DNA of 28,425 nucleotides, taken from a virus. Positions 4,886 through 24,711 of the stretch are shown piece after piece. The notes under the pieces were generated by a model. That model saw only the letters and a list, made by a program, of their open reading frames with translations, had not been told where the DNA came from and made no database searches. The translations under genes and the position numbers were made by a program. The first letter of the stretch is position 1. Every line of letters begins with the position of its first letter. The stretch lies in the IMG/VR virus record IMGVR_UViG_3300006925_000100, positions 1 to 28,425 of that record; one strand, given 5' to 3'.

Positions 4886-5254
4886 TTAGTTTGCTGCTTC
4901 ACATTCTGCACAGTCATCGTATTGAACAGATGCAGTATTTATATGCACCCCTTCTGAAGATAGTGTAGAAGTTATTGTGTAACACTCGTTGTGATTGTTT
5001 TCTAAAGTAAGATAATATACTTTACCAACCGTTAATTCTGTATCGTGCATATGTACGTGCCTAGTATGTTGGTTTGAACAAGCTGTTGCTAAATATCCAT
5101 ACCAAACACCTGTAAGGCTTTCTCCTGTAATATTACCTATACCTTGTGCTTGGAAACTTCCATCACAACATCTTCTGCTGTATGTTCCGTCATCACATAA
5201 ACAACCTCTTTTGTCGTTTTTAGGACTTGGCGCGTAATGTTCGTAATCTCTCAT
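4886..5254 (-). CDS. Cysteine-rich small protein, unknown function
   Basis: From the ATG at 5254 the product is 122 residues; a TTG start at 5269 would add five. I prefer 5254 because it forms an ATGA overlap with the protease stop. The N-terminal part holds a dense cysteine cluster (RGCLCDDGTYSRRCCDGSF, about residues 16-34), and the C terminus has a second pair (DDCAECEAAN). The middle looks beta-rich and includes a His-rich patch (NQHTRHVHMHD). The two Cys pairs and the His patch could bind a metal or form a structural knot. I recall the CLCDDGTYSRxCCDGSF pattern in other Flavobacteriia phage genomes beside the head genes but know of no assigned function. Context suggests a head decoration or head-completion protein. 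Confidence 0.62.
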   Translation of the reverse strand: MRDYEHYAPSPKNDKRGCLCDDGTYSRRCCDGSFQAQGIGNITGESLTGVWYGYLATACSNQHTRHVHMHDTELTVGKVYYLTLENNHNECYTITSTLSSEGVHINTASVQYDDCAECEAAN

Positions 5255-6258
5255 TTTATAGGAACGCAATTAGGTACTCTTTTACCGTTTTTCATCTTAA
5301 AGCCTATCATCTCATATCCTGTTTGACAAGGCTTCTTTAAATCAGCTTCTAACAAGTCTAATTCTTTTAACTTACTACCTGCCCATCTAAGTCCTGCTTT
5401 ACCGCCCCACAATAAGTAAGAAATAGTACCACAGGCTTCGCTGTTTCCTTCATCGTAATATTCTTGCGCCCTACTTAGGTAGCTGAACATCCTTTTTATT
5501 GTTTCTACACTTACAGGCTTTCCTTTTGCAAGTTGAGTAGCTCTTATCTTGCCCACTTGCGTTGCACACTTGTTGTTTACCTTCTCGTTTAATTCTATTC
5601 CTCTTTTAGCGTTGTTAGATACTGCATCTGGATAGTCTGAATATGAATCTAACTCAACTCCAGATAGGACGGTCTTTAATTCTTCTAATAAAAAATCTTC
5701 TTCTTGTGATTCCCATTCACTTAAATTATTTGGTTCGTTAGGTCTTTCTAACTTGTCAGCAAAGTACCCTTCTATTGAAAACCCTTTTACCTTGCCTGTT
5801 TTAACGTAGTTATTCCAAACATCATCATTTAGAACTTTCATTGATAGCATCCAAGTACCTAATGGCATATCCATACCGTAATGACTTGACTTGTCTTTGT
5901 CTTTATTTTCTACAATCCAAGACTCAACCGCTACTAACCCTTCTAAAGGCATTTGATGTTCTAGTGTACTCTTGTTGTGGTTGCCTCTAATAAAGAATAA
6001 CTCACTTGCTTTACGGACTGTATCACGTGAGAAGTAAATGTAGTATTCGTTTTCTTCACTTCTTCTATAAATAGGTTTATTAGGAATTAAAGCAGCACCC
6101 ATTAGAATACGCTTCTCTTTGTTCACTTCTGCAAATTTAAACTCTTGGTTTTTTAATGCTACGAAATCTTCTTCAATTGCAGGGTTTTCTACTATTGATA
6201 CTGCTTCGATTCCTGAAACATCGTCATTCTCATCTATAAATAGTTCTATAATGTCCAT
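5251..6258 (-). CDS. Capsid maturation protease (XkdF-like) with fused C-terminal domain
   Basis: This 335-residue protein begins with the pattern of XkdF-type phage serine proteases: ELFIDENDDVSGIEAVSIVE near the start, GAALIPNKPIYRR (about 54-66), a His-containing loop (GNHNKSTLEHQMPLEGLVA, candidate catalytic His near 101), GTWMLSMKVLNDDVW (134-148) and GKVKGFSIEGYF (155-166, candidate catalytic Ser161). After a charged linker, residues about 214-300 form a second domain with NNKCATQVGKIRATQLAKGK and SYLSRAQEYYDEGN, a segment I recall as a separate helical module in Bacteroidota phage proteins. The protease would process the scaffold and capsid encoded immediately downstream. A late promoter ends five bases before its ATG. 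Catalytic residue assignment is tentative. Confidence 0.75.
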   Translation of the reverse strand: MDIIELFIDENDDVSGIEAVSIVENPAIEEDFVALKNQEFKFAEVNKEKRILMGAALIPNKPIYRRSEENEYYIYFSRDTVRKASELFFIRGNHNKSTLEHQMPLEGLVAVESWIVENKDKDKSSHYGMDMPLGTWMLSMKVLNDDVWNNYVKTGKVKGFSIEGYFADKLERPNEPNNLSEWESQEEDFLLEELKTVLSGVELDSYSDYPDAVSNNAKRGIELNEKVNNKCATQVGKIRATQLAKGKPVSVETIKRMFSYLSRAQEYYDEGNSEACGTISYLLWGGKAGLRWAGSKLKELDLLEADLKKPCQTGYEMIGFKMKNGKRVPNCVPIK

Positions 6259-15063: not shown

Positions 15064-16233
15064 TTAATAGATAAAATAATTTCCTTTGTGTGGGTTCTCT
15101 AATGTATCAGTCAAGATGTAACGTGCAGCATCTATACAGTCAGGGTGTTCTCCTGTTGGTTTCTGTAAGGTGTTCCCCTCTTTGTCCTTTGCCCATATAT
15201 ATCCTTGTAATTCCCTTTTTAGGTTCTTGCTTCTTGATGTTATATAAAGTTCGTTTTGGTTCATTAGGTTGATTCCATATACTACTGAATCCCTACCCTT
15301 GCTCACAGGTGTTACTGTATGCCCATACCCTTGTAGTTCTGCAATACTCTTTGGTTCAGCTGAATCTGCTACAATAGCTTCTGTGATTCCGTTAGAAGAT
15401 AAAAACCTGCTTATATCTCTATTAAGCATCCCCTTCTTATATAACACCTCATCGTATATGTAGGCATCATTCCACTTATATAATGCTATTAGTGTGGTAG
15501 GGTCTACCGAATATCCAAAGTCCATTCCATAGCCAAGCAGTCTAGCTTCGACAGGAACTGTATCAATCTCTTTCCAATCAGGAATACAAACCCCTTCAAG
15601 GCTTCCTATTTCACCTAGTCCATAAACCCTCCACCAGTTCGCCCAATAGGTTGAGGTCTTAGCTTTGTCTTTAGCTTTTTCTATTTCTCTTACGATTGTG
15701 TCTGGTAGTGAATCGTTATCCTTGTAGGTTAGTGTAACAAAGTCTGTATCTTCTTTTCCTACTAATTCCTTATCAACCCAGAATAGTGCAGCAGGGTTAT
15801 AATCTAACCAAATGTTTCCACTTGTTCTTACTACTAATTGTTGGTAAGCATCAAAGGGTACATTGTTACACTCATTAATGTATAAGTCTGTTCTCCTTGC
15901 ACCTCTTAGTTTGTCAGGTTGGTCGGTTGAAAAGAACTCTATATAACTGCCATTTGTAAACGTGTATTTTAAGGTGGACTTGTTTAGTTGGTTATCCTTA
16001 TACCTATTCATACCCTTTAAGATGCCTAAGAAGTCCTTGTATGCGCCTCTACGCAGGTGTGGTATGCTTTCACTTACTACACTAATTTCTTTGCCATCAT
16101 TTCTTATAGCGTAGTCAATCAAGATAAGCAATATGCAAATAGTCTTTCCTGCTGATGTACCACCACGTACAATCTTGACCCTGCTGTTGAGGTTTCTTAA
16201 TTTGGTAAGTGCTTCTGTTTTCTTTATCTGCAT
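15064..16233 (-). CDS. terL: Terminase large subunit
   Basis: The 389-residue protein has both domains of a large terminase, the motor that packages DNA through the portal. The ATPase domain shows a Walker A at residues 24-31 (GGTSAGKT) and a Walker B at 116-121 (DLYINE, with catalytic Glu121). The C-terminal RNase H-like nuclease shows three acidic sites: GMDFGYSVDP with Asp238, AIVADSAEP with Asp290, and HPDCIDAARY with Asp365 or Asp368. The length is on the short side but complete. It starts 29 bases after the small-subunit candidate in one operon behind a late promoter. Its stop is followed at once by the host-type promoter of the next operon, and I see no hairpin between them. Confidence 0.93.
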   Translation of the reverse strand: MQIKKTEALTKLRNLNSRVKIVRGGTSAGKTICILLILIDYAIRNDGKEISVVSESIPHLRRGAYKDFLGILKGMNRYKDNQLNKSTLKYTFTNGSYIEFFSTDQPDKLRGARRTDLYINECNNVPFDAYQQLVVRTSGNIWLDYNPAALFWVDKELVGKEDTDFVTLTYKDNDSLPDTIVREIEKAKDKAKTSTYWANWWRVYGLGEIGSLEGVCIPDWKEIDTVPVEARLLGYGMDFGYSVDPTTLIALYKWNDAYIYDEVLYKKGMLNRDISRFLSSNGITEAIVADSAEPKSIAELQGYGHTVTPVSKGRDSVVYGINLMNQNELYITSRSKNLKRELQGYIWAKDKEGNTLQKPTGEHPDCIDAARYILTDTLENPHKGNYFIY

Positions 16234-16566: not shown

Positions 16567-16643
16567 TCCTTAAAGTATTCGTACACCGCTGCTGCTAGTA
16601 ATCCAAAGGATGTGATAGCAAATAACATTATTGAGTATTCCAT
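16563..16643 (-). CDS. Tiny membrane peptide (26 aa)
   Basis: The ATG at 16643 shares one base with the stop codon of the DnaA-like gene (TAATG), and the frame runs 26 codons to a TAA at 16563. The peptide is MEYSIMLFAITSFGLLAAAV followed by YEYFKD: one hydrophobic helix of about 18 residues with short charged ends, so probably a single-span membrane peptide. The coupled start and full use of the gap favour a real gene. The function is unknown. A chance ORF in a short gap is the alternative. Confidence 0.45.
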   Translation of the reverse strand: MEYSIMLFAITSFGLLAAAVYEYFKD

Positions 16644-17134
16644 TACACTTCTGCGTATTTCTCGTATGCGTTAGGTTCGTACTTACTGAAGAACTTTAGC
16701 ATATGGTTATGTTTCTTTTTTAGGTCTAGGTATTGGGTGTTTATGTCTTGGTATATTTTAATCACCTCTTGCTTTTCTTTTTGCAATCTTAGCTTCTCTG
16801 CTTTTACTTTCTCAATCAGTGTAGATGGGTTCTTGTCTGATTCATCGGTATACACTTCCATAACTTTGTTGTAGATTGATAGTTCGTATGTATAGTATGA
16901 TTTCTGCATTAAAAACGCATCAAATATTCTTACACCGTGCAATACAGTTGCGTGGTCTTTATTCAACATCTTACCTATGTCTGTTAATGATGAATTGGTT
17001 ATTTCTCTACATAGCTTATAGTATACTGCTCTTGCGTAAACGTACTCTTGTTTTCTTGTCTTTGCGTTTAGGTTTAAGTTGCATTCTTGTTCTACTATCT
17101 TCCTAATCTCTTTCAGTATCTTCTCGTTTCTCAT
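16643..17134 (-). CDS. DnaA domain IV-like replication protein with coiled-coil tail
   Basis: The 163-residue protein carries the DNA-binding domain IV of the bacterial initiator DnaA without the AAA+ ATPase domain. Residues about 28-68 hold the family pattern: QEYVYARAVYYKLCREIT, then the helix-turn-helix SLTDIGKMLNKDHATVLHGV, where KDHATVLHG matches the DnaA signature that contacts the DnaA box. Residues about 100-150 form a Lys/Glu-rich coiled coil (KVKAEKLRLQKEKQEVIKIY). In DnaA this domain binds TTATCCACA-like boxes. Here it may bind the phage origin, recruit the helicase encoded at 22182-23096, or compete with host DnaA. It overlaps the upstream gene by 32 bases and belongs to the ParB/Mom operon. 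Confidence 0.82.
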   Translation of the reverse strand: MRNEKILKEIRKIVEQECNLNLNAKTRKQEYVYARAVYYKLCREITNSSLTDIGKMLNKDHATVLHGVRIFDAFLMQKSYYTYELSIYNKVMEVYTDESDKNPSTLIEKVKAEKLRLQKEKQEVIKIYQDINTQYLDLKKKHNHMLKFFSKYEPNAYEKYAEV

Positions 17135-17315
17135 TGATGTTTGTTATTGTATCGTGTCTTGTTTCGTTTATTGCTTTTAGTATTCCTGCACAGGCTTCGT
17201 AGTCTTCTACATCTTCATAGAGTTGTATTATATCTTCTAGTTCCTGTATGCTTACTCCTTCTTTTATGTCTAGTAAGGTAAGCAAATAAAATTCTTCTAT
17301 TATGTCTTTATTCAC
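17103..17315 (-). CDS. Small acidic protein (70 aa), unknown function
   Basis: The frame starts at a GTG at 17315, overlapping the Mom-like stop by eight bases, and ends inside the DnaA-like gene (32-base overlap). The product (EEFYLLTLLDIKEGVSIQEL, then EDIIQLYEDVEDYEACAGIL) is strongly acidic and helical with a more basic tail. No domain is recognised. Tight overlaps on both sides mark it as part of the operon. Small acidic phage proteins can be DNA mimics or inhibitors, but that is speculation here. Confidence 0.55.
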   Translation of the reverse strand: MNKDIIEEFYLLTLLDIKEGVSIQELEDIIQLYEDVEDYEACAGILKAINETRHDTITNINEKREDTERD

Positions 17316-18003
17316 TGTAATGTTTTGGATATGGTTGTTCCACTAAAAGACATTTCTTCTTTTCCCTTTTGTCTATGAATTTAATGTACCTAAATTGTCT
17401 TAGATTCATTTTCTTTGCACGTTCTTTGTTTTCTTGGAGGTACTTAGCCGCACCCGCATATCTTTTTGAATCTTTTGATACGGTCATTTGTATGTTATGG
17501 TACACAATACCATCAAGTTCCCAAAAGTCGCTTTTATGTTCGCCATAATAACCAAAAGAACACGCTTGGTACACTATTCCAAAACCGCCACATCTTTCAT
17601 CTGCAAATGATTGAATCCATTTTATACTTGGGTATCTTCTTCTTATGTATTTTATAGAATAACTTATTGCCCTGCTTTCGGGATATTTACCTACGTTGTC
17701 TGCAATCCACATTCTGTTAAGTTCCAAGTATTCATTCTTTTGCGTACCCTCTACAACGCTCCCACAAGATGCTGGGTTCATAGCATATCCATATTGCAGA
17801 ACGCCCTTTATATTAGCATCAACGAAAACCCCTAAATGAATATACGTTGCATTGTAAAATTTACCGCTATAATGGTTTTTCTTTATTATGTCATTTGCTA
17901 ACTTTCTATCTATCTCTTTTATATAGAAATCATCGCTACCGAAGCCAAGCAGCTCGGGGTCTCCCCATAAGCTGCTTTGTTCTGAATAAAGGTATTTCTT
18001 CAT
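17308..18003 (-). CDS. Mom-like DNA modification protein (GNAT-type)
   Basis: The 231-residue protein matches the pattern of the phage Mu Mom family, which converts adenine in DNA to an N6-carbamoylmethyl-type form that resists restriction. Visible motifs are KKNHYSGKF (41-49), HLGVFVDANIKGVLQYGYAM (56-75), YLELNRMWIADN (92-103), ESRAISYSIKYIRRRYP (109-125) and QSFADERCGGFGIVYQACSF followed by GYYG (131-154), in the usual order for Mom-like acetyltransferase-fold proteins. The C terminus is basic. It overlaps the ParB-like gene in an ATGA, so the two are translationally coupled. An antirestriction role would fit expression from a host-type promoter. Substrate and chemistry are unproven; another GNAT activity is the alternative. 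Confidence 0.75.
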   Translation of the reverse strand: MKKYLYSEQSSLWGDPELLGFGSDDFYIKEIDRKLANDIIKKNHYSGKFYNATYIHLGVFVDANIKGVLQYGYAMNPASCGSVVEGTQKNEYLELNRMWIADNVGKYPESRAISYSIKYIRRRYPSIKWIQSFADERCGGFGIVYQACSFGYYGEHKSDFWELDGIVYHNIQMTVSKDSKRYAGAAKYLQENKERAKKMNLRQFRYIKFIDKREKKKCLLVEQPYPKHYSE

Positions 18004-18809
18004 TGTATGTTGAGGTATTTTTTAAATGATGGCTCTACTGCATCTCTTGCGTAAGTGCAACTTGCGTTTGAATTGTAATGATATATGGTAAAGTCTATCA
18101 TCATATCCAATACATCTTTATTTGTAAAGTTATCTAAGCCTTTTCTGTGGCTAAGTATTCTAAGAAAAGAAGCGGTTGATGTTCCGTTTAGTCGCATCTT
18201 ACCACCATTCTTTTCTGTATGTGCTAATAACTTACCGTTTAACAAATAGTTTTGACCAACATATTCAACGACTTCTAAAAGTTTCAAATAATCTTTTGGC
18301 AGTTTTGCAACACCCTCTCTCACCGTTTTATTATTACCCAAAAAAAGGTTAATCAATGATGGAACGGTAAACAACTTTCCGTGTACTTCGTTTGCTTCTT
18401 TTTCGTTTTTAGGACTTTGCATAACTTCTTTTAAGAAACGTTGATATGTTTTATTTCCACTACCAGCATAACTAACAACATAGTCAATGGTGTTTAATGT
18501 CTTACCTCTTGTGTTAAAAGAGATAAATGTTTTTCGTGCTTCTTCTTCGTTCTTTACAAGTTTTTCAAGCACTCTTATCTTTCTTGACTTAAGATGGTTT
18601 GTCATAGCATCAACAAGGTGTGCGCCATCGGTTAGCCATCTTGTACCTTCCGTTGTTGCACAAACTAGAACATCTCTCATTTGTCCGTTTTCTAATACTG
18701 CTTCGGCTAAATCTTTAACGTTTTTTTGGTTTCTCCACCTTTGCCAAGATGGTGTAATTACAGTTGCAAAATCGTTTTTAGTGTAAATTGTTCTTCTAAT
18801 TGTATTCAT
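18000..18809 (-). CDS. ParB/Srx-fold protein coupled to Mom-like gene
   Basis: The 269-residue protein has an N-terminal ParB-like domain: WQRWRNQKNVKDLAEAVLEN (22-41), then a strand-turn TRWLTDGAHLVDAMTNHLKS (56-75), where DGAHLVDA takes the place of the ParB box (GxHRxxA type), then FISFNTRGKTLNTIDYV (95-111). The C-terminal half is helical and unassigned. ParB-fold proteins bind nucleotides and include partition CTPases and an ATP-dependent serine kinase. The ATGA overlap with the Mom-like gene suggests a joint role in DNA modification, for example preparing the donor group or choosing sites, but this is inference. Chromosome or plasmid partition is less likely because no ParA is seen. Confidence 0.65.
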   Translation of the reverse strand: MNTIRRTIYTKNDFATVITPSWQRWRNQKNVKDLAEAVLENGQMRDVLVCATTEGTRWLTDGAHLVDAMTNHLKSRKIRVLEKLVKNEEEARKTFISFNTRGKTLNTIDYVVSYAGSGNKTYQRFLKEVMQSPKNEKEANEVHGKLFTVPSLINLFLGNNKTVREGVAKLPKDYLKLLEVVEYVGQNYLLNGKLLAHTEKNGGKMRLNGTSTASFLRILSHRKGLDNFTNKDVLDMMIDFTIYHYNSNASCTYARDAVEPSFKKYLNIQ

Positions 18810-18867
18810 AATATAATTGTTTGTTTGCCTACTCTATTGGGTTTTCGGCTTACCCCTTTTTACTTTG

Positions 18868-18897
18868 TAAATATATAACCTTTTTTTTAATTAACAA
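18868..18897 (-). promoter_or_regulatory. Host-type promoter of the ParB/Mom operon
   Basis: The minus strand reads TTG (18895-18897), 19 bases, TATATTTA (18868-18875), one mismatch from the TAnnTTTG consensus in the last base. The leader to the ATG at 18809 is 58 bases and ends with AAACAAACAATTATATT. The gap 18810-18914 holds only this promoter and leader. Confidence 0.6.
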
Positions 18898-18914: not shown

Positions 18915-19682
18915 TTATAATATGCCTCTCATTACATATTGGTCAAGGTCTGTATCGCCTTGAAAAAAGTACTTGTAGTTGTCTACTGCTCTATGGAATT
19001 TGTCCTCGCCTCTTGCTATAAATTCTTCTGTTGTTTCAAAGATGCCAATATCACAACTACCTTTGTCTACCACCAAGAACTTAAAGTCATTTGCCTTAAA
19101 CATTCTCTTGTACATATAAGCCTGTAAATCGTAACCATACTTATCTGCACTATACTTAAATGTAGAAAGGTCAGCAGAAGTCTTTAAATCAATTATGGTG
19201 TCTCCTTGTATAATATCTGCCTTACCTCTAAAAGGTAACCCTTCCATCATTTCTATTGCAGGTATCTCAAACTCTGATTTGTTTAGCAGTTTAAGTGCTG
19301 CTTCGTTTCTTAGAACTGCATCCGCTACACGCTCTGCTTGACTTCTTTCTTTGTTTAGAAACACTTCACCATATTGTGCTTTAGCTTCCTTATAAACCTT
19401 TGTGCCTTTTGTTGATGGTTCTATAAAGTGTAACTCATCTACCTTGTGCGGCTCTAATATCATCCAATGTACTAACTTACCTTGTGCAAGTGCAGGACTA
19501 TCTGAACTAGGGTCTCCATACTTAGTTACGTTTCTATAAGTCTTTGGTGATTTAAGTATCATCTTTAGACTGCTGCTGCTTAAAGCGTGTTTTCCTAGAT
19601 GTCCATAGTAGAAGTTATCATCGTACATCTCTGCAAGGATTTCTTCCCTTGCCCACGTTTCGTTATTTAGTAGTGTTATCAT
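18915..19682 (-). CDS. PD-(D/E)XK exonuclease (RecE/PDDEXK-like)
   Basis: The 255-residue protein shows the core of the phage exonuclease branch of the PD-(D/E)XK superfamily: SSSSLKMILKSPKTYRNVTK (35-54), AQGKLVHWMILEP (66-78) with the family His72, FRGKADII (151-158) with Asp156, IDLKTSADL (164-172) with Asp165 and Lys167, and YDLQAYMYKRMF (184-195) with the Gln/Tyr motif. Such enzymes resect double-stranded ends and pair with annealing proteins; here the ERF protein is encoded about 4 kb away rather than next to it. The start overlaps the upstream 53-residue ORF by 20 bases. No hairpin terminator is evident after the stop. Confidence 0.82.
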   Translation of the reverse strand: MITLLNNETWAREEILAEMYDDNFYYGHLGKHALSSSSLKMILKSPKTYRNVTKYGDPSSDSPALAQGKLVHWMILEPHKVDELHFIEPSTKGTKVYKEAKAQYGEVFLNKERSQAERVADAVLRNEAALKLLNKSEFEIPAIEMMEGLPFRGKADIIQGDTIIDLKTSADLSTFKYSADKYGYDLQAYMYKRMFKANDFKFLVVDKGSCDIGIFETTEEFIARGEDKFHRAVDNYKYFFQGDTDLDQYVMRGIL

Positions 19683-22024: not shown

Positions 22025-22185
22025 TGTAAAGTGTATTCCCTTCCTTCCTCGTAATCTTGGAAAGAGTACAAAGCACCAACAACAATTCCTATCATTGGTG
22101 CAATGCTAATTTCTGCATCATTGATTTGACCCCAATATAACATAAGGATAAATATCAACAACAATGTAATTATTAGTTCAATCAA
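21967..22185 (-). CDS. Small membrane protein (72 aa)
   Basis: The protein begins with a hydrophobic segment MIELIITLLLIFILMLYWGQ (1-20), then a second (APMIGIVVGALYSF, 28-41), then an acidic DYEEGREYT loop, and a third weakly hydrophobic stretch (LQCCIFVVSITVIW). Two or three membrane spans are likely. It overlaps the helicase stop in an ATGA and the sigma-like gene by up to 58 bases. It lies far from the lysis cassette, so a holin role is less likely than an effect on the host envelope or anchoring of replication or sigma proteins. No family is recognised. Confidence 0.6.
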   Translation of the reverse strand: MIELIITLLLIFILMLYWGQINDAEISIAPMIGIVVGALYSFQDYEEGREYTLQCCIFVVSITVIWQKNTDG

Positions 22186-23096
22186 AATAGTATCTCATCA
22201 ACTTCTGTTTTTTTACTATGTAGAATATCCTTTCCAAGAAATTCAAAGCCTACATTGTTTCGGCTCATCCTCAATTTAATGGGCTGTTCAAAAGGTGTAC
22301 ATCTGCCACCTGTTTCTGTTTCTTTTATTTTCAAAACGTGCAGTTCAGAATACATCCACTCATTCGGATGGTTTGTCATACGGTGTACACAAAATACATC
22401 GTCTGCCCTGTTTCCCCATTTACCACCCCCCTCAACTTGCGACATTGACAAAGGCTGTGGAAGATGAGCATATTCGTGGTCTTTTGGATATGTTCTACGC
22501 ATTGCTTCTGTTACGCCGTGAGCATTTAAAAATACAGTAACGTTTCTATGTTTTGCAAATAATCTAAATTCAGAAGCTATTTGGTAGTCGTATTCGTGTC
22601 CACCTAAATTTCTCATTAGCTGCTTATCTTTTGCTAAAGAATTGTATGGGTCAATCATTATTGCATCGTAATCCCAAGCATCTTTAATAGCGTTTGCCTC
22701 ACTCAATAGTTGTTTATAGGTAACTAAATCTTCAACGTCTATTATCTTAAAATAAGTATCGCACCATTTTACAGCTTTGTCAATTTCTTCTTCTGATGCT
22801 GTCTGTATAGGTTGCCCCATTTTAAATTCAATAATCTTTCTAACTATACTTTGTGGTGTATTCTCGCTTGACCATATTAAAAACTTTAGTTTGTGCTTTA
22901 TTGCCCATACAGTAAACAAGTAAGTTAGTACTGTTGTCTTTCCAACATTAGCGTGTCCTATTAGTAAATTAAAGTTTCCGTGCTTAAATCGTAGGTACTC
23001 ATCCATTTCTTTAATATCAATCTTCAAACCTTCTTTAACCCTACCGTGCTTGATGTCTAATATTCGTTCCTTAATTGTTTGTGCTTGTGTTATCAT
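22182..23096 (-). CDS. DnaB-like replicative helicase (RecA-fold only)
   Basis: The 304-residue protein is a RecA-fold ATPase of the DnaB/T7 gp4 helicase type. Walker A is GHANVGKTT (47-55), SSEN (76-79) holds the catalytic Glu position, Walker B is DAIMIDP (144-150), and VFLNAHG (188-194) is the sensor region. Near 222-241, QVEGGGKWGNRADDVFCVHR fits the loop and arginine-finger region. The N-terminal DnaB domain and any primase domain are absent, so it must work with host primase and loader or with other phage proteins. It starts in an ATGA overlap with the 52-residue ORF and is followed by the membrane and sigma genes. The DnaA domain IV protein may help recruit it to an origin. Confidence 0.8.
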   Translation of the reverse strand: MITQAQTIKERILDIKHGRVKEGLKIDIKEMDEYLRFKHGNFNLLIGHANVGKTTVLTYLFTVWAIKHKLKFLIWSSENTPQSIVRKIIEFKMGQPIQTASEEEIDKAVKWCDTYFKIIDVEDLVTYKQLLSEANAIKDAWDYDAIMIDPYNSLAKDKQLMRNLGGHEYDYQIASEFRLFAKHRNVTVFLNAHGVTEAMRRTYPKDHEYAHLPQPLSMSQVEGGGKWGNRADDVFCVHRMTNHPNEWMYSELHVLKIKETETGGRCTPFEQPIKLRMSRNNVGFEFLGKDILHSKKTEVDEILF

Positions 23097-23665: not shown

Positions 23666-24184
23666 TTACAGTTTTGATAACTCATCTTGTACCTTTTTTG
23701 AAATCTTGTACTTTGATTTAATAGCTGATAAGTCCCCACCACCTTGTAAGTACTCTATTGCTTTTGAGTATTCAGGGGTGTTAGCGTTTAACCAAGCCTT
23801 TTCTACTTGTGAAACGTTTCCACTTGCTGCATTACCATCATCATCTTCTGCTTGTAATCCTAATAAAGAAGCTAACGTGTAACGTCTGTAATAAGTAATA
23901 CAAGAACCTAACTTCTGTGGGTCTGATATTTGTGGTAATTCTAAAATAGATACAGCTACTTGTTCTGAATCAATACAAGTGATTTTAGTTTCAACCGTAT
24001 TACCTAACAAGGGTTGTGTTAAAAGAAGCCTGTTCTTTTCTAGTAATTTGTCTAGTTGTTTAATTAGTGAATTGATGTCAAAATATTTCGACTTGTAAAA
24101 TGGGTTACTAGCATCCTTGCTAATTGCACCAATTTCTTTTCGTAAATTAAATAGCTTCTGACTTAGTGTTAATTGTTTGCTCAT
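23666..24184 (-). CDS. erf: ERF-family single-strand annealing protein
   Basis: The 172-residue protein has the ERF pattern: LFNLRKEIGAISKDASNPFY (11-30) followed by KSKYFDINSLIKQLDKLLEK (31-50), then LLLTQPLLGNTVETKI, then DPQKLGSCITYYRRYTLASL (86-105) with the conserved LGSxITYxRRY motif, then LGLQAEDDDGNAA. The C-terminal third is helical and likely a partner-binding tail. ERF proteins anneal complementary single strands for phage recombination, genome circularisation or repair. It heads an operon with the SSB-like gene behind a host-type promoter, so it is probably made early. Confidence 0.85.
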   Translation of the reverse strand: MSKQLTLSQKLFNLRKEIGAISKDASNPFYKSKYFDINSLIKQLDKLLEKNRLLLTQPLLGNTVETKITCIDSEQVAVSILELPQISDPQKLGSCITYYRRYTLASLLGLQAEDDDGNAASGNVSQVEKAWLNANTPEYSKAIEYLQGGGDLSAIKSKYKISKKVQDELSKL

Positions 24185-24294: not shown

Positions 24295-24711
24295 TTAGGA
24301 AAGTCTTTTAAGTTGCGTAGAGTAAAAGTCAATCATTTCCTGTAATTCTACATTTGTAAATTTAGTGATTTCTCTACTCTTTTGATACAATTCATCTGAT
24401 AAGTTACTACCAAGATATAAACTATATTTGTATTGTTCCCCTGCCCTATATACATTACAAGCTACGCATTGAGGTTTTACGTTACGCTCATCCCACCTTG
24501 TGCTATAATGTTTCCTAGAAATAAAGTGTCCTGCTTGTATGCCTCCTGTTTTCCAATGTCCCTGTTTACCACAAGTAACACAAGTGCAAAAACCTCTACT
24601 ATCAGCATTGCTTAACCTTACCCATTGACTAAAAACAACATCTAATTTTTTTACTAGTTTACTTCTTGTTGGTTTCTTAGCTGTTTTAGGCATAGTCTTT
24701 TTTTTAATCAT
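24295..24711 (-). CDS. ninG: NinG-like recombination protein
   Basis: The 138-residue basic protein matches lambda NinG (Rap), which acts on recombination intermediates. A Lys-rich N terminus leads to SKLVKKLDVVFSQWVRLSNA (17-36), then a zinc-binding core CTCVTCGKQGHWKTGG (42-57), IQAGHFISRKHYSTRWDERN (58-77) and VKPQCVACNVYRAGEQYKYS (78-97). Cys42, Cys44, Cys47, His62, Cys82 and Cys85 are candidate ligands, in an HNH-like arrangement. The start overlaps the upstream 77-residue gene by eight bases; Met7 is an alternative start. With the ERF, SSB-like protein and two nucleases it forms a recombination set. Confidence 0.88.
   Translation of the reverse strand: MIKKKTMPKTAKKPTRSKLVKKLDVVFSQWVRLSNADSRGFCTCVTCGKQGHWKTGGIQAGHFISRKHYSTRWDERNVKPQCVACNVYRAGEQYKYSLYLGSNLSDELYQKSREITKFTNVELQEMIDFYSTQLKRLS

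Follow-up and report, generated by a model that had tools for sequence, protein, structure and literature searches.

A ParB-fold gene overlapping a Mom-family DNA-modification gene forms a recurrent pair in phages

What does a ParB-like protein do beside a phage enzyme that modifies adenine? The question is raised by a 28,425-base virus record (the whole stretch analysed here, hereafter the window), in which the end of a gene for a ParB-like protein overlaps the start of one for a Mom-like protein. An initial annotation of this DNA had proposed a hypermodification system in which the ParB-fold partner binds or hydrolyses a nucleotide and so supplies or activates the donor group used by Mom, or in which it sets Mom's choice of sites.

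The two genes of the pair

Both open reading frames lie on the minus strand with an ATGA overlap on the coding strand, as the initial annotation had placed them. They are flanked by genes for a RecE-like exonuclease on one side and a small DNA-binding protein on the Mom side. The features, in window coordinates, are:

5251-6258, prohead protease
15064-16233, large terminase
16643-17134, minus strand, small protein with the DnaA C-terminal DNA-binding domain
17103-17315, 70-residue gene overlapping the end of Mom
17308-18003, minus strand, Mom gene, 231 residues, family of GNAT-fold DNA adenine modification enzymes (evidence: PF25680, Mu Mom, 8bv8, dN/dS)
17563-17604, minus strand, motif ADERCGGFGIVYQA, Mom residues 134-147, with A134, D135, G139, G142, Y145 and A147 invariant
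17710-17724, minus strand, motif ELNRM, Mom residues 94-98, with E94, L95, N96 and R97 invariant in 13 diverse Moms
18000-18003, minus strand, ATGA stop/start overlap coupling ParB to Mom, read directly on the coding strand
18000-18809, minus strand, ParB/sulfiredoxin-fold partner gene (of the family we call parC), 269 residues, DUF262/DGQHR-like (evidence: Mom neighbourhood, GmrSD_N, fold)
18504-18809, minus strand, predicted ParB/Srx-fold domain, residues 1-102, by VIA-align on the predicted model
18513-18527, minus strand, FxxxN motif (FISFN, residues 95-99), followed by TRGKTL, with F95 and N99 invariant
18615-18629, minus strand, altered P-motif DGAHL, residues 61-65, with D61, G62, H64 and L65 invariant in 17 relatives
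18915-19682, minus strand, RecE-like exonuclease
22182-23096, DnaB-like helicase
23666-24184, ERF recombinase
24295-24711, NinG-like protein

In related phages, too, Mom often has the protein with the DnaA C-terminal domain as its neighbour on the downstream side.

We identify the 231-residue protein as a genuine Mom with high confidence. It matched PF25680 over profile positions 1-202 of 202 (E 5.2e-68; 229 bits, cut-off 27.1) and PHROG 1384, 'Mom-like DNA modification protein' (E 2e-55), and it aligned end to end with PDB 8bv8, 'Methylcarbamoylase mom', the solved Mu Mom (E 4.8e-61); its identity to Mu Mom is 48.6% over 91%, and that to the Mom of phage D108 is also about 48%. The ELNRM, ESR and ADERCGGFGIVYQA motifs by which the protein had originally been recognized are all present, and the residues invariant across an alignment of 13-14 diverse Moms (HYS, ELNR and AD..CG..G..Y) are all kept. 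The deposited 8bv8 chain reads EARAISY where both Mu Mom and the window Mom have ESRAISY, so the serine at this position may be important. Purifying selection is evident in both genes: in comparisons of close pairs, Mom has a dN/dS of about 0.05 and ParB one of 0.08-0.13. The product of Mu Mom is an N6-carbamoylmethyl (acetamido) group on adenine. Like Mu mom, with which it shares 48-49% identity and the ELNRM and ADERCG blocks, the window gene stands beside a regulatory element; unlike Mu mom it has no Com gene in the window, and is instead preceded by the ParB-fold gene and an RNA leader of the DUF805b type. Only one Mom was found in 149 Flavobacteriaceae genomes, in the genome used as centre, and the pair is therefore phage-borne and no common prophage gene there.

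The ParB-like partner is of an unusual type, and its place in the ParB/sulfiredoxin fold holds by family and predicted structure. On its own, the window protein matched both PHROG ParB families (E 5e-5) and GmrSD_N (PF03235/DUF262) weakly, the latter at E 0.0035, with 17.9 bits against a Pfam cut-off of 33.2; GmrSD_N was, however, matched by 18 of 24 aligned parC members at E<=0.1, the best at 1.8e-5. It had no match to the PF02195 ParB_N domain at E<=1 and none among the known defence systems of PADLOC, which ruled out membership of either. A profile of the core parC family alone found no ParB among PDB sequences; PDB ParBs were reached by a wider parC alignment and by fold. In an AlphaFold2 model (mean pLDDT 84.7), residues 1-102 superposed on ParB, PadC, Noc and sulfiredoxin structures, among them 6ryk, 7bm8, 3cyi and 1xw3, with Z of 9-11 and rmsd of about 2.7 Å; the helical remainder had no clear structural match. 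The fold given in the initial annotation is thus backed by the GmrSD_N matches of the family and by the predicted structure.

The altered box DGAHLVDA, also noted originally, is present, with Leu65 at the position of the arginine of ParB, Srx and DGQHR proteins. QR, DGQ(H/Q)R and FxxxN motifs are listed for GmrS/DGQHR proteins (PMC4619093); the window protein has the QR pair, DGxH and FxxxN, and lacks the final arginine of DGQ(H/Q)R. It resembles GmrS/DUF262 and DndB-type DGQHR proteins in its QR pair, DGxH core, FxxxN(TRG) block and weak but repeated GmrSD_N matches, and differs from them in the leucine, in having no HNH (GmrD) half and in having Mom as its partner. Mutation of the P-motif arginine to alanine abolished NTP binding in the ParB-fold proteins tested (PMC12704722). 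Because this arginine is an invariant leucine in the window branch, nucleotide use there is doubtful and may be lost or altered, and a strict CTP-clamp mechanism is likewise doubtful.

Recurrence of the pair and its exceptions

A scan of viral contigs that used only the parC family, and took no account of Mom, yielded 53 loci, in 51 of which Mom adjoins parC. Of the two exceptions, L214 starts at a contig edge, and its closest relatives have Mom on that side; L181 is a genuine one, with a TSPPY-type methyltransferase two genes downstream. The non-redundant pairs number 41 (38 in the order ParB-Mom and 3 Mom-ParB) and occur in several flanking contexts. Among 31 spacings in the window clade, -4, that of the ATGA overlap, was the commonest (16/31).

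A separate Mom clade gave the same association with a different ParB. Psychrobacter phage vB_PmaS_Y8A (OQ059336.1), a cultured phage, has a ParB/Srx gene (ORF16) overlapping a Mom gene (ORF17) by 8 nt; its authors named the ParB and left the adjoining ORF17 hypothetical. A scan with this Mom gave a clade of 81 loci, and a PF02195-type ParB lies directly upstream of Mom and overlaps it in all 80 that could be evaluated, the 81st being cut by the contig end. As in the window, then, a ParB/Srx gene overlaps a Mom gene, and unlike the window ParB that of Y8A is of the PF02195 type. The ParBs of this clade, in loci found through Mom, have a conserved C-terminal tail in common, which among 50,697 annotated phages occurred only in Y8A. 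A third ParB family, parE, precedes a window-type Mom (86-88% identical) in four loci (L008, L009, L011 and L012) and a more distant Mom-like protein in L373-L375. We saw no fusion of ParB to Mom.

Conserved ParB-Mom pairs, whose absence from other phages the initial annotation had said would refute it, were found, and the pairing is a recurrent module of two known families that extends beyond the immediate lineage and draws on non-orthologous ParBs. We have high confidence in a functional link of the parC and Y8A-type ParBs with Mom. The pairing is apparently undescribed, as had been supposed; no account of it as a system was found in the literature searched, a largely open-access body that includes neither Iyer et al. 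2013 nor the principal papers on Mom.

Several loci are more elaborate. Y8A has a second Mom-like gene, ORF69, annotated as Mom. Some Y8A-type loci have second, tandem Moms with no ParB of their own. In L122, L125, L136 and L151 a PAPS-reductase-like gene (SGGKDS motif) comes after a ParB-Mom-Mom array, and several of these loci then have a ParB-methyltransferase-like fusion as well. Three others (L163, L129 and L114) have two tandem tailed ParB genes before one Mom. A distant family of Mom-like GNAT proteins occurs in L016 (1453-2133, with YELNRL and SYAD motifs, in tandem with Mom), L186 and L373-L375.

Mom also occurs without ParB, and ParB without Mom. Mu-type Moms had an adjacent ParB in 0 of 32 viral loci and for 0 of 81 Moms in genome loci. 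Of the 50 rows in the clade of the window Mom, 23 show a neighbouring ParB and 24 show none, and on the tree of this clade at least 10 changes of the parC label are required on starred branches. The Moms of L036 and L039 are 98% identical; L039 has a ParB between the exonuclease and Mom, and at exactly this place L036 has none. Of 14 ParB-less records of the window clade, many of them fragments, 13 had no ParB_N or parC protein at any position. Conversely, ParBs of a further family, parY, stand without Mom in 13 of 15 loci and those of parE in 5 of 10, and there is no Mom near the Y8A-like ParB of an E. coli plasmid (L331) or the ParB of a Bradyrhizobium plasmid (L332).

The leader of the cassette

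Upstream of the ParB gene we found two further features, the first of them overlooked in the initial annotation:

18826-18858, minus strand, cis-regulatory RNA in the leader, Rfam RF02914 (DUF805b), 47.1 bits (gathering 35.6), E 7.5e-13
18868-18897, minus strand, Bacteroidota-type promoter-like element TTG-N19-TATATTTA, nearly identical in L005 and weak alone

Three of the four pairs of the DUF805b stem have changes on both sides. A model of the leader RNA built here and run over the 81 sources of our first set (648 kb) gave strong matches that all (14/14) precede Mom-adjacent ParB genes, of two ParB families, with the score falling from 42 to 12 bits between these and the next match. All ten parE genes have the element in front of them, those without Mom included, and the leader RNA therefore belongs to the ParB gene; its candidacy as a regulator of Mom was dropped, since it stays with parE genes that have no Mom. 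DUF805b is found in 70 of 120 Flavobacteriaceae genomes, before diverse and often secreted proteins, and being so common there the leader appears to have been borrowed by the phage from its host.

The host-type promoter with a 58-base leader to which the pair had been ascribed fared less evenly. The element is there, at a position that suits a leader of about 55-58 bases, and it is near-identical in L005, where dS is saturated; the loose promoter pattern, however, is barely above chance in the AT-rich window (14 found against about 10 expected), and the element is absent in L004, L019 and L022.

What the ParB-fold protein may do for Mom

ParB domains are joined to DNA modifiers other than Mom. 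The ParB domain of PSYG_00039 of Psychrobacter phage pOW20-A is 79% identical to that of the Y8A ParB and is fused to an N6_N4 methyltransferase, so that a near-identical ParB domain has been swapped between methyltransferase and Mom; the Y8A pair and the pOW20-A fusion both lie just upstream of terminase genes, and in L109 a ParB-methyltransferase fusion is immediately upstream of ParB-Mom. Phage ParB-methyltransferase fusions are widespread (PMC12704722). They resemble the window pair in joining a ParB/Srx-fold domain to a DNA base modifier; they differ in that the window has a separate, coupled gene, Mom chemistry rather than SAM methylation and another ParB subfamily. In dPreQ0 insertion, DpdB, a ParB-like ATPase, serves the DNA base-modifying enzyme DpdA (PMC12839542). 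By that published description the two systems are alike in having a ParB-like protein serve such an enzyme and unlike in that DpdA is a TGT homologue and Mom a GNAT. As non-orthologous ParBs recur with Mom and a 79%-identical domain is fused to a methyltransferase, ParB may be seen as a swappable companion, which suggests that viral DNA-modifying enzymes use ParB-type proteins as interchangeable helpers.

We therefore favour, with a probability of roughly 0.45, a two-gene antirestriction cassette for adenine modification in which the ParB-fold protein targets, loads or gates Mom. Mom would add an acyl-type group to the phage DNA, so that the window phage would carry a modified base and be protected from restriction; the ParB/Srx-fold protein, produced in step with Mom through translational coupling, would bind DNA, physically contact Mom and, as a targeting, loading or gating subunit, set the sites or the timing of its action. 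Other ParB domains of phages plausibly play an equal role for N6/N4 methyltransferases with which they form fusions. Our confidence in the exact role of ParB is moderate to low. The frequency of ParB-less Moms, even among near relatives, counts against targeting or gating, as do the many parE and parY genes in the same slot without Mom, the missing P-motif arginine and the lack of any ParB-Mom fusion.

An unlikely reading makes the ParB-like protein a regulator that, in the manner of DndB, represses or limits its own operon and so keeps Mom from acting too early or too much, as Mu mom needs tight control. DndB, of the DGQHR/ParB superfamily, has been reported to regulate DNA modification negatively at the level of transcription (PMC10853773), and Mu mom is under post-transcriptional control by Com (PMC6483171); ParB is moreover the first gene of the cassette, with a cis-regulatory RNA in its leader. 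A regulator leaves unexplained why near-identical ParB domains are fused to methyltransferases, and the frequent ParB-less Moms must be controlled otherwise. The pattern of presence and absence might also reflect nothing but position, with ParB-like genes and Mom as independent accessory genes that share a slot between the exonuclease and DnaA-C genes and the terminase, their adjacency being mere hitchhiking. This is rather doubtful and still a live rival, because two related ParB families are often without Mom; about half of the window-clade Moms are also without ParB, and the RNA leader tracks the parE gene whether or not Mom follows. Shared cargo alone nevertheless leaves unaccounted for the adjacency of parC and Mom in 51/53 loci, which holds for either gene order and across several contexts, and that of the Y8A-type clade in 80/80 with translational overlap.

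Supply of the donor, the role first suggested, would have ParB make or activate the donor group of Mom by binding or hydrolysing a nucleotide. Members of the ParB/Srx fold do include kinases and NTPases, for example a free serine kinase (5x0b, Z 7.2), and a ParB-acetyltransferase fusion binds GTP (PMC12704722). The idea is made improbable by the Mu-type Moms without an adjacent ParB, by near-identical Moms both with and without one, by the change of the P-motif arginine to an invariant leucine and by the pairing of ParB with SAM-type methyltransferases, whose donor is known; that ParB sets the site choice of Mom, the other role suggested, is possible and is preferred. Least probable, and very much so, is counter-defence, in which the protein would be GmrS/DUF262-like and would, as a decoy or an inhibitor, counter the Type IV (GmrSD) enzymes with which a host would attack Mom-modified DNA, or would be a nuclease against unmodified competitor DNA. 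The GmrSD_N resemblance, the QR, DGxH and FxxxN motifs and the lack of an HNH half would suit it; the other partners of Mom, however, are ParBs of the PF02195 type and not GmrS-like, and loss of the arginine of DGQ(H/Q)R argues against catalysis.

The retention of ParB with Mom in dozens of unrelated phages gives a handle on how Mom finds its sites and is controlled outside Mu, and the presence of the pair in Y8A places it in a cultured phage. A wider proposal, which we put forward only tentatively, is that phage DNA modification draws generally on ParB/Srx-fold proteins as a swappable chassis, a DNA-bound helper that fusion or translational coupling links to modifiers of unrelated chemistry: SAM methyltransferases, Mom and perhaps an ABC-GNAT protein. 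The Bacteroidota-phage cassette would then be under a host-type DUF805b RNA switch. If ParB modules are indeed interchangeable between methyltransferases and Mom, viruses would share this principle in disguising their DNA, and ParB neighbours would help to predict new DNA modifiers. The ABC-GNAT protein is that of Pasteurella phage Pmp13 (L296, 1983-3628), in which a ParB gene overlaps one for a 366-residue fusion of an ABC ATPase and a GNAT domain, just before the terminase genes; it is possibly a third chemistry coupled to ParB.
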